A stretch of DNA of 64,000 nt from Flavobacterium zhairuonense (GTDB taxonomy: Bacteria > Bacteroidota > Bacteroidia > Flavobacteriales > Flavobacteriaceae), in NCBI RefSeq assembly GCF_004352915.1, contig NZ_SJSY01000076.1:620001-684000 (forward strand). Reading direction: 5' to 3'. The translations under genes were made by a program, and so were the position numbers. The notes under the pieces are model-generated. The model worked only from the letters and a program-made list of their open reading frames with translations, was not told the DNA's origin and ran no database searches. Positions 2,226 through 6,552 of this stretch are shown piece by piece (positions within the stretch are counted from its first letter, which is position 1; the number at the start of each line of letters is the position of its first letter).

Positions 2226-2687
2226 ATGAGCGCAAATCATAACAGAATAAAAGTAGCTGATTTAGAAACGAATCAGCAAAACAAAATTTTAATTACCAAT
2301 GAAAATGGTGAATTAACTTTTGATGATATTCCAGAGAAAACTTTTAAAACAATAAATGGCGAATCAATTCTTGGTAATGGAAACATTGATTTGTCTAACA
2401 AACAAGATATTTCAAATCAATTAGAAGTTAATGCTAGTCAAACAATCTCTTCTAACTGGCATGGAAAAACAGTTCTCTTTACAGCAAACTGTACTATTAC
2501 AGTTCCAGCTACACTAATTGACAATTTTATTTTTAATGGTGTTACTTTAGCGGGAATTACTGTGAATTGGGTAATTACAGCTCCCCATACTTGGTTGTTT
2601 GGAGTTCCTTCAGCAACATCTGAAAAACAAATTTTCACTTTTACGAAAAGAGGTTCTACAAATAGCATTTTATTATTAGGTGTATAA
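2226..2687 (+). CDS. Tail-cassette protein, short paralogue of 4954-6552
   Basis: 153 residues from the ATG at 2226. The N-terminus MSANHNRIKVADLETNQQNK is nearly the same as the N-terminus of the 532-residue protein at 4954 (MSTNHNRIKVADLETNEPDK), which is why this start was chosen over the in-frame ATG at 2181 inside a hairpin. The middle (about 60-150) is beta-rich: TINGESILGNGNIDLSNKQD resembles phage tail-fibre phrases that introduce trimeric repeats, and the end is a possible small beta domain. The last base of its stop is the first base of the next ATG (TAATG), suggesting translational coupling. The function is unknown; a particle-attachment module shared by several tip proteins is an inference. 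Confidence 0.65.
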   Translation: MSANHNRIKVADLETNQQNKILITNENGELTFDDIPEKTFKTINGESILGNGNIDLSNKQDISNQLEVNASQTISSNWHGKTVLFTANCTITVPATLIDNFIFNGVTLAGITVNWVITAPHTWLFGVPSATSEKQIFTFTKRGSTNSILLLGV

Positions 2688-4915
2688 TGGGAAGCTTATT
2701 ACAAAATACCGTTTTCGGAAGAACTAAAAATTCTTTTGTATCTACTTGGAGAACAAGTAATACTTCATCCGGATCAACTACTGCCACACAGATAAAACTA
2801 CCTTTAATTTCAGCAGGAAGCTATAACTTCATTGTGGATTGGGGCGATGGAACGTCTAGTATAATAACGACATGGAATCAAACACAAACAACACATAATT
2901 ATTCAGTTGCTGGAGTTTACACAATAAAAATAAAAGGAAGATGCAAAGGATGGGTATTTAATAACGCTGGAGACAAATTAAAAATTTTATCGATACAAAG
3001 TTGGGGAAATCTTTCTTTAGGTACCACACAAAAAGGTTATTTCTGGGGATGTTCCAATCTTAATCTTACTGGTGTAACAGACCTTTTAAATTTATCTGAA
3101 ACACAAAATTTATCTCAATGTTTTTATGCCTGTAATGCACTTACATTTATAAATAGAGCAAATGAATGGGATACTTCTGGAGTTACAAATATGAACTATA
3201 TGTTTCTTCAGTCAAATTCATTTAATCAGGATTTAGGGAATTGGAATGTTTCGAATGTTTTGGATTTTACGAACATGTTTAATGCCGCTCCATCTGGAGC
3301 ATTTAACAATGGAGGAAGTTCCAGCATAAATAATTGGAATATTAATACTTCTGGTGGTGTATTGATGACAAATATGTTCAATAATCAAACTTCATTTAAC
3401 CAATCGTTAGGCAATTGGAATATGACGGGAGTTACTGCAATTGATGGAATGTTTAATGGTTGTAGTTCATTTAATCAAGATTTGTCAAATTGGGAAAGAG
3501 TGGACTCGACACTTGCTAATGTTACTACAATGGCAGCTACATTTCAAGGATGTTCTGTTTATAATAAAAGCATGAATAGTTGGAATGTCAGTGGGGTTTC
3601 TAGTTTCAGCGCATTTTTACGTAATGCATCTCTTTGGAATAATGGATTAGGAGCGGGAGTTTCAGGAATTATGACTTGGAATTTAAGCACATCTATTATT
3701 GTCAATTTGAATCAGATGTTTCAAAACTGTCAAAATTTCAATCAAATTGTTGGAGGATGGAATACCAATAAAGTTGCAAATATGACAGATTTATTTTCTG
3801 GTTGTACTAGATTCAATAATGGAATGACATCAGCAGCTGTTGGTCCAATGACATGGGATTTATCTAATTGTGCTTCTACTGCAAGAATGTTTCAGGCTGC
3901 GTCGGCATTTAATCAAGATATAACATCTTGGAACATGACAACAGTTAATAATACAAATGGTATGTTTACAACGGCAAAGGTTTTTAATCAAGCTATAAGT
4001 AATTGGGAAAGAGTTGGATCTACAATGGGAAATGTAACCAATATGACTGGCATGTTCCAAACAGCATTAGCTTTTAATAACGGCCTGCCACCAGGAGTTG
4101 CTGGAAATATGTTTTTAGATTTTAGTAATGCTACAACTCTAAGCAGTATGTTTATCCAAGCTTCAGCATTTAATCAAAATTTAGGTGCAGCTAATATGAG
4201 CAAAGTAACAAACTTTACTAACATGTTTTCAGAAGCAACCAAGTTTAATAACGGAGAAAGTACTGATATTAACAATTGGATTCTTAATACCTCAGTTGGA
4301 GCAAATGTAATCATGGATAGAATTTTTGCATCAGCTTCTAAATTCAATCAACCCTTAAATAATTGGAATGTCTCTGAGGTAACAAATATGACATCAGCAT
4401 TCTCAGGAGCAAGTATTTTTAACAAACCATTGAATAATTGGAATACACAAAAAGTTACTAGTATGGCTGCAATGTTTGCAACTGCCTCATTTTTCAATCA
4501 AGATATTTCAAACTTTAATTTATCTAATGTAACAACAATTTCACAGATGTTTTATCAAGCCGGATCGTTTAACAATGGGGGAAGTAATGGTATAAATAAT
4601 TGGGACACTTCAAAAGTTACAAATATGGGCCAAACTTTCCAATCCGCATCAGCATTTACTAGACCAATAAACAACTGGAATATTTCGAATGTGACATCGG
4701 CTTTTAATTTTATGGCTGGCAAAAACGCTGCTAATTACTCAACAGCAAATTTAGATGCAATTTACAATACAACAAATGGTTGGGCATCAAGACCTGTAAA
4801 AGCAAATGTATCTATTAGTTTTAGTACTATAAAATATACCGCAGCTGGAAGTGCAGGAAAGGCAATTTTAACTGGATCTCCCAACAACTGGACTATAACA
4901 GATGGCGGAATTTAA
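2687..4915 (+). CDS. BspA/DUF285 repeat protein with PKD-like N-terminus
   Basis: 742 residues. Residues about 40-85 look like a PKD fold (DWGDG at 51-55; HNYSVAGVYTIKIKG). From about 100 to 710 the protein consists of roughly twenty units of about 26-40 residues of the BspA/DUF285 type, each with FNQ or FNN, then NWN-x-S/T-x-VTNM and MF. These repeats occur in BspA-family surface proteins of bacteria and mycoplasmas and are linked to adhesion. The last 35 residues (VSISFSTIKYTAAGSAGKAIL) form a beta-rich cap. There is no signal peptide. The start overlaps the previous stop (TAATG). Placement after tail genes suggests a receptor-binding or adhesin-like tip protein, which is inference. Confidence 0.8.
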   Translation: MGSLLQNTVFGRTKNSFVSTWRTSNTSSGSTTATQIKLPLISAGSYNFIVDWGDGTSSIITTWNQTQTTHNYSVAGVYTIKIKGRCKGWVFNNAGDKLKILSIQSWGNLSLGTTQKGYFWGCSNLNLTGVTDLLNLSETQNLSQCFYACNALTFINRANEWDTSGVTNMNYMFLQSNSFNQDLGNWNVSNVLDFTNMFNAAPSGAFNNGGSSSINNWNINTSGGVLMTNMFNNQTSFNQSLGNWNMTGVTAIDGMFNGCSSFNQDLSNWERVDSTLANVTTMAATFQGCSVYNKSMNSWNVSGVSSFSAFLRNASLWNNGLGAGVSGIMTWNLSTSIIVNLNQMFQNCQNFNQIVGGWNTNKVANMTDLFSGCTRFNNGMTSAAVGPMTWDLSNCASTARMFQAASAFNQDITSWNMTTVNNTNGMFTTAKVFNQAISNWERVGSTMGNVTNMTGMFQTALAFNNGLPPGVAGNMFLDFSNATTLSSMFIQASAFNQNLGAANMSKVTNFTNMFSEATKFNNGESTDINNWILNTSVGANVIMDRIFASASKFNQPLNNWNVSEVTNMTSAFSGASIFNKPLNNWNTQKVTSMAAMFATASFFNQDISNFNLSNVTTISQMFYQAGSFNNGGSNGINNWDTSKVTNMGQTFQSASAFTRPINNWNISNVTSAFNFMAGKNAANYSTANLDAIYNTTNGWASRPVKANVSISFSTIKYTAAGSAGKAILTGSPNNWTITDGGI

Positions 4916-4953: not shown

Positions 4954-6552
4954 ATGAGCACAAACCACAACAGAATAAAAGTGGCTGATTTGGAAACAAA
5001 TGAGCCAGACAAAATTTTAAGTACTAATTCACTTGGCGAATTAGAATTTACCAACATTAACGCTATAAAAGTTGACAGTTACAATGCCCTTGATTATACT
5101 GATGCGGGCAAAGCATTAGATGCAAGACAAGGTAAGATCTTAAAAGACTTTATCAACGACATTAATGCTTTATTAGTTTCAGATAATGTCAACTTAAATA
5201 CAATCCAAAAATTAGTCGATGCAATTGAAGATGTAAAAGCTTCGTTAGACACAATTTTGGTTAATAACCTAAGTTCCGGTGGAACAACAAAGGCTTTGAC
5301 TGCAGAAATGGGCAAAACATTGCAAAATACTAAAGTTGACAAAGCTCCTGGCGAAAGATTAATTAATGCTGAAGAAATTACCAAACTCTCTGGAATATCA
5401 AATGTTGTTACTACCGTAAAAACGATAGTATCAACTGCTTTAGCAACCCAAAACATTACAGGATTTGTAAATTATATTAATGCCTTAAATCCTGTGCTTA
5501 TAGTTGGTCCTAATGAAATTGTGAAGTACACAACCAGCGATACAGGCCGAACATTTGAATTAAACTTAAGAGGTCGTTCTTTCGGTGTTGGACAACCAGC
5601 TATCACAGCTTCAAATGTTGTAGAAGTTACTGATTTCTTAAATAAGGACATCAAATTGAGTAATTATCTTTCTACACGTAACGATGGACAATCACCAACT
5701 AACAGAGTGTTAGGAACAGATGCTAATGGTAATTTAAAAATGTATAGTATTACATCTTTTCCAGCGCCTTTTTTAGAATCTTTAATTGCTGATAGTCCTT
5801 TACCCTCAAATACGGGTAACATAACAATTAAAGGAGCGTTTTTTACACCAACAATGACAGTATCAATTGTCGGTCAAACAGTAAACTATGTAACTTTTGT
5901 TAATGATAATTTAATTAAAGTAAATGTTACAACTGGATCTGCAGAAGGAAGTTTTTCGGTTACTTTAAACAATGGGATTTCAGCAACATTTAATAATGCT
6001 TTATTGATTGTTTTGGGGACTGTTTACACTCCAATATCATCTGAATGGTCAGAAATTACAGGATTAATTGATGTTTCTTCCGGAGATTACTTAAAAACAG
6101 TTGCACTGGGAACTATTGGTACAGCTAAATGGGGCCATATAGCTCTAGGTGTTAATTTTAGTCTTAGATTTGTTATTACAAAAACACCACTTGGAAATGC
6201 TGACAATGGTTATGATGCTTCAAGTTTTTCAGTTTCACTGTATGACAAAGTAACTAATGCTGATATCTTAAAGTATACGCGAAGAGTTGAATATGCAATA
6301 TCTGGTGGAAGTCATTATGTATATAGAGAAAATGGTACAACCGAATATGCTATATCAGCTCCATTTAATGACATAGATCTCGGTAATACAGTTGTCATTG
6401 AATTTAGACGTGTAGCGGGAATATTTTCGTTTTTAATAAACAGCGTTGTAAAATCGGGATTAACTCAAACCTCTGTCAATGCACTTGGTGTAAAAATCCG
6501 CGTAAAAAATTTAGATGTTAAAAATATTAAATTTATAGCATTAGCAACTTAA
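4954..6552 (+). CDS. Large tail-tip or fibre-like protein with IPT/TIG-like domain
   Basis: 532 residues. Order: the shared attachment-like module (1-35, MSTNHNRIKVADLETNEPDK); a segment with two copies of a tail-fibre phrase (AGKALDARQGKILKDFI at about 50 and GGTTKALTAEMGKTLQ at about 108), typical of trimeric phage fibres; an IPT/TIG-like Ig domain at about 270-350 (PSNTGNITIKGAFFTPTMTV...INVTTGSAEGSFSVTLNNG-like strands); and a C-terminal beta-rich domain of about 180 residues that is unrecognised but sized like a lectin or concanavalin fold. No signal peptide. It is the last gene of the + strand cassette and probably the outermost adhesion part. Confidence 0.65.
   Translation: MSTNHNRIKVADLETNEPDKILSTNSLGELEFTNINAIKVDSYNALDYTDAGKALDARQGKILKDFINDINALLVSDNVNLNTIQKLVDAIEDVKASLDTILVNNLSSGGTTKALTAEMGKTLQNTKVDKAPGERLINAEEITKLSGISNVVTTVKTIVSTALATQNITGFVNYINALNPVLIVGPNEIVKYTTSDTGRTFELNLRGRSFGVGQPAITASNVVEVTDFLNKDIKLSNYLSTRNDGQSPTNRVLGTDANGNLKMYSITSFPAPFLESLIADSPLPSNTGNITIKGAFFTPTMTVSIVGQTVNYVTFVNDNLIKVNVTTGSAEGSFSVTLNNGISATFNNALLIVLGTVYTPISSEWSEITGLIDVSSGDYLKTVALGTIGTAKWGHIALGVNFSLRFVITKTPLGNADNGYDASSFSVSLYDKVTNADILKYTRRVEYAISGGSHYVYRENGTTEYAISAPFNDIDLGNTVVIEFRRVAGIFSFLINSVVKSGLTQTSVNALGVKIRVKNLDVKNIKFIALAT

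Follow-up and report, generated by a model that had tools for sequence, protein, structure and literature searches.

A BspA-type repeat protein of Flavobacterium as the probable receptor-binding tip of a lysis-released toxin complex

We studied a gene for a protein with BspA/DUF285 repeats in Flavobacterium zhairuonense. The gene lies in a 64,000-nucleotide stretch of DNA (the window) that corresponds to positions 620,001 to 684,000 of contig NZ_SJSY01000076.1 (C55 below) from a genome of 5.25 Mb. It belongs to a 35-kb island (C55:591397-626552) whose left part we took from the same contig. We conclude that the protein is probably an exchangeable receptor-binding tip of a toxin complex that is released by lysis and that is neither a phage nor a known tailocin. 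The evidence comprises the island's gene content, gene order and conservation, the pairing of a short N-terminal tag with an adaptor protein, fusions of the repeats to one of the island's core proteins, variable C-termini in another of its large proteins, and conserved operator-like sites. How the complex would assemble, bind a receptor, be repressed and induced, let a toxin enter, and kill is what we infer from these observations.

Results

The repeat protein

The gene (positions 2687-4915, plus strand; coordinates without a contig name refer to the window) starts with ATG and encodes 742 residues. It matches Pfam's DUF285 in seven stretches (E = 1.4e-115; 380 bits against a cut-off of 25) and the PARCEL repeat TIGR02167 from NCBIfam (40.5 bits against a cut-off of 30). 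By the curated cut-offs of both models, it belongs to the DUF285/PARCEL family. A simple motif occurs 14 times, and 11 of the 13 spacings between its copies are 25 or 30-33 residues. This regularity and the profile matches together put the repeats far beyond chance. A sequence-only reading of the window, made by a model from the DNA and its open reading frames (ORFs), had recognized the repeats and had described the protein as a 742-residue array. The array is real; the ends of the protein are not part of it. Residues 1-14 (MGSLLQNTVFGRTK; 2687-2728) are what we call the docking tag. Residues 15 to about 105 (2729-3001) form a PKD-like collar (PKD_4, E = 0.03, below Pfam's cut-off). The array itself runs approximately from residue 119 to residue 690 (3041-4756), as judged from the seven Pfam stretches, direct repeats and motif spacing, and a short C-terminal end follows it.

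Proteins with DUF285 repeats are described as surface proteins (PMC2996958), and jumbo phages such as vB_VhaM_pir03 are described as encoding them as well (PMC7765460). The window's protein has the repeats and the patchy distribution of the BspA/DUF285/PARCEL proteins of the former source, and it differs from them in lacking a signal-like start and in being joined to an adaptor by its tag. The sequence-only reading had seen no signal peptide, and this held up: the highest mean Kyte-Doolittle hydropathy over 11 residues near the N-terminus is 0.65, versus 2.3-3.1 for three nearby proteins with signal-like starts (this is a hydropathy measure; no dedicated signal-peptide program was used). No model for the C-terminal domain of the type IX secretion system (T9SS) matches the protein at E <= 1. 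By hydropathy and profile scan, then, it has neither the signal peptide nor the T9SS domain of a secreted BspA-type adhesin. A sequence search of solved structures with this protein found nothing below E = 0.02. Compared to 11 other BspA tips, the window's tip is 71-86% identical in the tag, 69-77% identical in the PKD-like part, and 44-49% identical in the remainder.

The docking tag and its adaptor

The start codon of the BspA gene overlaps the stop codon of the preceding ORF (TAATG), which ends at 2687. This ORF (2226-2687, plus strand) encodes a protein of 153 residues, which we call the adaptor. It probably starts at 2226 (MSANHNRIKVADLE) and not at 2181. The sequence-only reading had correctly described the coupling and the position of the BspA gene behind fibre and chaperone genes (Phage_tail_APC at 206-574). 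The adaptor has a fibre-type N-terminal module and a C-terminal domain that ends in TKRGSTNSILLLGV. Its N-terminus is also that of the long fibres at 4954-6552 and C55:602621-604588, and the DNA of the former is 83% identical to the adaptor's start over 93 nucleotides. The adaptor has no match at E <= 0.1 among 50,697 phage records. In IMG/VR, its residues 54-153 have one strong match, and there are seven weak matches.

We examined 19 downstream regions, which were chosen because they bear DUF285, and found 23 BspA-like genes in them. The tag begins 18 of these 23, and 12 of them (in nine regions) are directly behind an adaptor of 153-156 residues. The adaptors' N-terminal module is that of the long fibres, and their C-terminal domain comes in classes. 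For adaptors of the TKRG class, 20 of 21 are followed by a protein that starts with MGxL(L/I)QNT(I/V)F. The 21st has no start within 40 nucleotides, and one of the 20 paired frames (in L137) stops after 15 residues. Both adaptors of the MQN class are followed by MGLRKTIFG, and the single adaptor of the QRAN class is followed by MRQRKTIFS. (We located adaptors by their endings and might have missed other classes.) The tag also begins proteins with unrelated bodies: 17 of 32 ORFs that start with it are BspA proteins, and among the other 15 are LRR_5, Laminin_G_3 and PD40 proteins and some with unassigned bodies. One genome (L134) has three BspA tips in tandem.

The sequence-only reading had suggested that the protein could be a receptor-binding part with a large, recombination-prone surface. 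A receptor-binding part with an exchangeable, fast-diverging surface is well supported by the pairing of tag and adaptor, as well as by fusions of PKD-BspA to the core protein D and by fibre-BspA pairs in a contractile-tail element (both described below).

A similar cassette beside a contractile tail

One IMG/VR record (L159, genome G430) carries three fibre-BspA pairs in tandem, with the same one-base overlap. Over 100 residues, the end of the fibre has 70% identity to the window's adaptor, and the N-terminal module of the fibre differs. The tip that we compared is 40% identical to the window's tip and starts with MGSLLQHTVFGR. Nearby genes encode baseplate hubs (E = 8e-12 and 5e-22), a tail sheath (E = 4e-39), a J-like tail protein and an endolysin. 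The island's giant protein C was not found in this record, which is a weak negative, as the record is a fragment. The same element (L159/L167) is apparently present in the Flavobacterium genome G236, where the places of DUF285 and the frame lengths are nearly the same, and G236 has no match to C. Because fibre-BspA pairs with the same adaptor domain adjoin genes for a sheath and baseplate hubs, with no C match in G236, the adaptor domain and the tip seem to be a portable cassette for receptor binding, one that also serves a contractile tail.

Association of the repeats with the island

DUF285 is present in 20 of 34 Flavobacterium-type island genomes. In each of these 20, all matches are on the same strand as C and 8.0-20.8 kb downstream of it. 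(In one of them, G223, the match is a DUF285 remnant with three stops.) D or C is found together with BspA in each of the 19 regions described above. In a sample of 199 genomes of the genus, C matches occur in 26 genomes (including our own; some are weak or short stretches only). DUF285 is present in 13 of these 26 and in 22 of the 173 genomes with no C match (P = 4e-5, Fisher exact test). The 34 island genomes and the sample of the genus share several genomes and are not independent. Among the matches listed, DUF285 lies 8-18 kb downstream of C in nine of the 13, and a tenth, G339, is G223, judging by the position and E-value of its C match.

The island combines phage-type genes with no recognized particle

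The main genes of the island (about C55:592390-626552) all point rightward, except for the repressor. From the left, the island encodes an S24/CI-like repressor (C55:591397-592080, minus strand), small ORFs, a DUF3164 protein (C55:592809-593522) and three candidate lysis proteins. These are a holin-like protein (C55:594815-595102, named for its topology and position), a CHAP endolysin (C55:595099-595551, a profile match like DUF3164) and a spanin-like protein (C55:595580-596080) whose lipobox-like start and hydrophobic segment near the C-terminus fit a one-piece spanin. Next are A (724 residues; C55:596301-598475), the polymorphic-toxin-like B (984 residues; C55:598475-601429), two small immunity-like ORFs, a fibre of 655 residues (C55:602621-604588), C (2476 residues, with a weak match to DUF6603; C55:605659-613089) and D (1943 residues, with a weak vWA match at the N-terminus; C55:613105-618936). 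A fibre-like gene (C55:619024-620178; 384 residues from ATG, 403 residues as listed from TTG) then leads into the window, where its 3' end occupies positions 1-178 of the plus strand. Relatives of this gene lie behind D in many related loci.

Pfam and PHROG scans covered the larger ORFs of the island (B and the 403-residue fibre in pieces); the remaining ORFs have at most 81 residues. These scans recognized no capsid, terminase, portal, sheath, tube or tape measure in the island, and profile scans recognized no baseplate. So, the island has no recognized capsid, portal or terminase by which a tailed phage or prophage would be identified. PHROG labels for head and packaging were weak and arose only for the holin-like gene (E = 0.098) and for the 403-residue fibre (E = 4e-7 and 0.025, "virion structural protein"). 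We read the latter protein as a fibre with a shared beta module because of its own fibre match (E = 8e-5). Across the whole genome, there are no matches to sheath (PF04984) or to gp19-type tube (PF06841), so neither the island nor the genome has a recognized sheath or tube of a contractile tailocin or of an extracellular contractile injection system (eCIS).

The sequence-only reading had suggested that the BspA protein could be part of a phage or a tail-like particle, and it named a lack of tail genes to the left as something that would count against this. Fibre, chaperone and lysis genes are indeed there, and a recognizable tail body is absent, so half of what would count against it was found. 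With no recognized sheath, baseplate or capsid in the island, no match to sheath or gp19-type tube in the genome, and neighbours that are a polymorphic-toxin-like gene and large proteins outside all known tail families, that part of the proposal is not supported in the usual sense. What comes closest to a tail body is the 403-residue fibre, with partial matches to tail models that are mostly below the cut-offs.

A and C have no relatives among the 50,697 phage records. The region has no direct repeat of at least 12 nucleotides between C55:589500-592600 and C55:626400-627400 that could mark an attachment site. Our searches of the openly licensed PubMed Central literature listed no title or start of an abstract that points to such an island, and they found no paper on DUF6603.

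The large proteins

B resembles a carrier of polymorphic toxins. We compared 30 B-like proteins, which were chosen by their similarity to B (two of them, from L076 and L099, are identical). Their N-termini form one cluster and their C-termini form 12, which is the pattern of polymorphic toxins: a single conserved N-terminal family combined with C-terminal domains of many unrelated kinds. In 30 of 30 genes, a small ORF (113-224 residues) starts between -4 and 28 nucleotides behind B, and these are putative immunity genes. Among 41 B-type, other large, and long A-type proteins, Pfam found EndoU in three, PG_binding_1 in two, Peptidase_C15 in one, and a marginal match to a head completion protein in one.

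D links the repeats to the core. We examined 69 D proteins of over 1,500 residues, which have a common core preceded by an extension of variable length (0 to about 1,055 residues). The extension contains a vWA domain in 34 of the 69 and PKD-BspA in three (twice in Tenacibaculum and once in Aquimarina). PKD-BspA on D occurs again in the second island of genome G179. These fusions tie BspA to the core.

For A, an AlphaFold2 model from an alignment with 28 rows is confident (predicted local distance difference test [pLDDT] 84.5, predicted template modelling score [pTM] 0.87). When we compared its first ~290 residues to known structures with VIA-align, CbpA ranked first (Z = 8.8), and ranks 2-5 were lysostaphin, LytM, lysostaphin and LasA (Z = 8.4, 8.2, 7.8 and 5.7), with Z of 3.9 at rank 6; Z of 7-8 is also a typical best score for models with no clear match. 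The root-mean-square deviations are 3.0-4.0 over 123-143 residues. We take lysostaphin, LytM and LasA to be M23 peptidases. The zinc-binding HxH motif is a feature of M23, and it is absent from the displayed stretches of A in 28 of 28 rows, so the N-terminal part of A is at best a pseudo-peptidase. Foldseek found no match for A in the PDB or among viral structures at E <= 0.001, so the likeness to M23 comes from VIA-align only.

The model of residues 1-1120 of C has low confidence (pLDDT 71, pTM 0.39), and it tentatively suggests a long antiparallel beta-meander. We considered whether C might be a barrel. The matches from Foldseek and VIA-align include LptD, ushers, porins and ApoB, but the deviations are 6.8-12.5 Å (42.7 in one row), and with the pTM of 0.39 we rejected this idea. 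Distant relatives of the middle part of C are found on plasmids of Mycetohabitans (23% identity, E down to 2e-22). For example, at L158 on the M. endofungorum plasmid NZ_CP132742.1, the gene for a DUF6603 protein of ~2,500 residues is preceded by a phospholipase D-like gene and by one for a protein of ~1,300 residues. This locus is possibly a distant relative of the island system in a fungal endosymbiont.

Distribution and conservation

Aligning C to the genomes in GTDB gave 87 encoding stretches. The best 80 of these 87 are in 78 genomes besides our own (78 rather than 80 because two genomes appear twice). The hosts are Flavobacterium, Chryseobacterium, Kordia, Tenacibaculum, Aquimarina, Salegentibacter, Bacteroidales and others, and one IMG/VR contig also carries a relative of C. 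A matches 5 of 199 genomes of the family (including our own). The order A-B-C-D recurs in many genomes. In nine of nine further left regions, the repressor, DUF3164, the endolysin, the spanin-like gene and A occur in this order, with no large additional ORFs between the repressor and A.

For eight island genes, ratios of nonsynonymous to synonymous change (dN/dS) are 0.01-0.20, as computed against one of three Flavobacterium loci (L022, L028 or L052). Because synonymous change far exceeds nonsynonymous change, these genes are under purifying selection.

The control region

Two near-identical operator-like sites of 17 nucleotides (TGTATTATTTTACRTTA) lie at C55:592088 and C55:592119, upstream of the repressor. 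When 10 genomes are compared, no position varies in the second site or in the adjoining TATATTTG, the first site has at most three changes, and most of the intergenic sequence beyond them diverges. Genome-wide, the pattern matches exactly at three places, two of them at the island, and at three more with one mismatch; the reversed pattern, as a control, has none. TTTG occurs 21 nucleotides before TATATTTG, an arrangement that fits the promoter consensus of Bacteroidota. Given the operator-like sites and the promoter-like TTTG and TATATTTG, the repressor probably shuts off the rightward operon. By analogy to other repressors of the S24 family, the island would be induced by DNA damage.

The third exact copy of the operator-like site is on another contig (C32:255207-255223).

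Discussion

A possible mechanism

We propose that the S24 repressor keeps the chromosomal island off through the two operators, and that upon induction, A, B, C, D and the fibres would be made in the cytoplasm. The adaptor would plug into the complex by the N-terminal module that it has in common with the island's fibres, and its C-terminal domain would hold the first residues of the tip. The repeat array would then face outward and bind a ligand on the surface of the target cell. B would bring a variable C-terminal antibacterial toxin, which the adjacent immunity-like gene or genes would neutralize at home. The holin-like, endolysin and spanin-like genes would lyse the cell and free the complex, and the toxin might enter the target via the beta-rich giant C.

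More broadly, the island might encode a new kind of antibacterial machine, which we put forward tentatively: a repressor-controlled and lysis-released complex in which C (DUF6603-like), A and D replace the tail tube, with phage-type fibres that carry plug-in tips (BspA, LRR_5, lectin-like or propeller) and with cassettes that are traded with contractile tails. Release by lysis, polymorphic toxins and modular tips are each already known.

For the DUF285/BspA repeats in Flavobacterium, this proposal offers a role that can be tested, that of plug-in binding tips. The docking tag and its adaptor are a means to recognize tips and to match them. The island is widespread, and it looks like a system for toxin delivery that joins lysis and fibre components of phages to a core of another origin. 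Should it prove to kill, one could test directly how a toxin passes two membranes when there is no tail tube, and C would be the candidate.

Points against this interpretation

Several observations weigh against our interpretation. Most C-termini of B match no family, and the poor model of C leaves it as a putative route of entry. The holin-like and spanin-like proteins are named for their topology and position, and their profile matches are weak (E = 0.0055 to 0.1). The 403-residue fibre has partial matches to tail proteins: to DUF2460 (31.1 bits, just above the cut-off of 30.4) and, below the cut-offs, to distal tail protein TIGR02217 (28.9 bits versus 136.65) and tail tube NF052337 (17.5 bits versus 60), as well as to PHROG's major tail protein (E = 0.009). 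C is also damaged in some copies, with a stop in G406 and a split in L066 and in L078.

The link between BspA and the island is also imperfect. DUF285 is absent from 14 of the 34 island genomes, so it is optional. In three of the 13 genomes of the genus with both C and DUF285 (G349, G361 and G413, the last of which has only a weak C match), DUF285 lies elsewhere than in the island, and the 22 of 173 genomes with no C carry it in other contexts. PKD-BspA on D is rare (3/69). Only 12 of the 23 BspA genes are directly behind an adaptor. Five untagged ones are directly behind a long fibre (L141, L142, L143, L145 and L146), four are 26-220 nucleotides behind a fibre or fibre fragment that has no adaptor ending (L135, L139, L140 and L144), and two are behind other genes (L137 and the second of L142). 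These last six are tagged.

Alternative explanations

The island might be what is left of a prophage, Mu-like or other, after the loss of its head and tail genes, with BspA as a decaying leftover fibre gene. The S24/CI-like repressor, DUF3164, CHAP endolysin, fibres and chaperone are of phage type, a relative of C is on an IMG/VR contig, and some copies of C are broken. However, the same gene order is found in many genomes, the nine left regions have the same genes and no large extra ORFs between the repressor and A, and A and C are unmatched in the phage records. The low dN/dS and the recurring gene order in particular disfavour decay, and we consider this explanation quite unlikely. We think it similarly improbable that the fibres and the tip serve a conventional contractile particle, either an eCIS or an R-type tailocin, with the genes for its sheath and tube at another place in the genome. 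Fibre-BspA pairs do occur in a contractile-tail element, and matches to gp19-type tube and sheath are found in 19 of 35 genomes (with sheath above the cut-off in four only). On the other hand, 16 of the 35, ours among them, have neither match. In the 13 positive genomes for which we know the contig of the island, the tube and sheath genes are on other contigs, and in other genera PKD-BspA is fused to D.

That BspA is an ordinary surface adhesin, with an unrecognized route of export and a coincidental neighbourhood, seems very unlikely. DUF285 proteins are described as surface proteins (PMC2996958), and 22 of 173 genomes of the genus have DUF285 and no C match, but the window's protein has no signal-like start or T9SS domain, DUF285 is co-located with the island in 20 of 20 genomes, tag and adaptor are paired, and PKD-BspA is fused to D in other genera. 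Finally, the complex might be real and its targets might not be bacteria: it might act on protists or other eukaryotes, with the domains of B as general effectors. Most C-termini of B are unassigned, and the distant relative of C beside a phospholipase D-like gene is in Mycetohabitans, recorded from Rhizopus hyphae. Against this, a small immunity-like ORF is directly behind B in 30 of 30 cases, and EndoU is described among the antibacterial nucleases of polymorphic toxins (PMC7073777). We view non-bacterial targets as rather unlikely, and we favour a complex with antibacterial toxins and BspA as its binding tip.

Comparison to known systems

R-type tailocins and contractile phage tails resemble the island in having fibres, an assembly chaperone, lysis genes, a repressor and exchangeable tips, and one contractile-tail element has fibre-BspA pairs with the adaptor domain. 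Unlike them, the island has no recognized sheath, tube, tape measure or baseplate, and its A and C are unmatched in the 50,697 phage records. As to non-contractile (F-type) tailocins, the island has no tape measure, and the matches of the 403-residue fibre and of the adaptor to tail models are partial and mostly below the cut-offs. (The adaptor ORF scores 14.1 bits with the Dit model TIGR01633, below the cut-off of 23.65.)

Large toxin complexes that are released by a cassette of holin, endolysin and spanin are known as type 10 secretion. The island likewise has large proteins beside lysis genes, and no signal-like starts were seen in the A-D of our genome. It differs in that these four proteins have no Pfam match to Tc, SpvB or Rhs domains at E <= 0.5, so they do not qualify as a Tc-type toxin complex, and in that fibres and adaptor-tip cassettes are added. 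The TANFOR polymorphic toxins of Bacteroidota are described as having a conserved N-terminal part, a variable C-terminal toxin (including EndoU) and an immunity-like gene behind, as B does; about 87% of them are predicted to have Sec signals, and they are proposed to be T9SS substrates (PMC7073777). The island's A-D lack signal-like starts, lysis genes lie upstream of them, and TANFOR (TIGR02542) has no NCBIfam match at E <= 1 in A, a B homologue, C or D, so these are not TANFOR proteins.

Other genes and loci

The remaining genes at this end of the island are all on the plus strand. The chaperone for tail fibre assembly (206-574, 122 residues) matches Phage_tail_APC (PF16778, E = 5.5e-19) and PHROG's tail fibre assembly (E = 2.9e-18). 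Two DUF5977 proteins follow, with 286 residues (640-1500, E = 8.2e-21 in Pfam) and 211 residues (1505-2140, E = 1.5e-18). A relative is present in 19 of 19 downstream regions, and DUF5977 is mentioned among the stalk domains of fibrillar adhesins (PMC8286594). Behind the BspA gene, the long fibre (4954-6552, 532 residues), which has the adaptor-type N-terminal module and matches Phage_fiber_rpt (E = 1.1e-9 in Pfam), forms the right end of the island.

At L146 (genome G225), a pair of genes for an S24 repressor and DUF3164 lies in the opposite orientation just right of the island, at ~14.9-16.9 kb, which suggests a second or inverted island. G179 has two different copies of the island, on its contigs C3 and C9, with different types of A, and an HExxH-type motif lies close to the C-terminus of A in the C3 copy.

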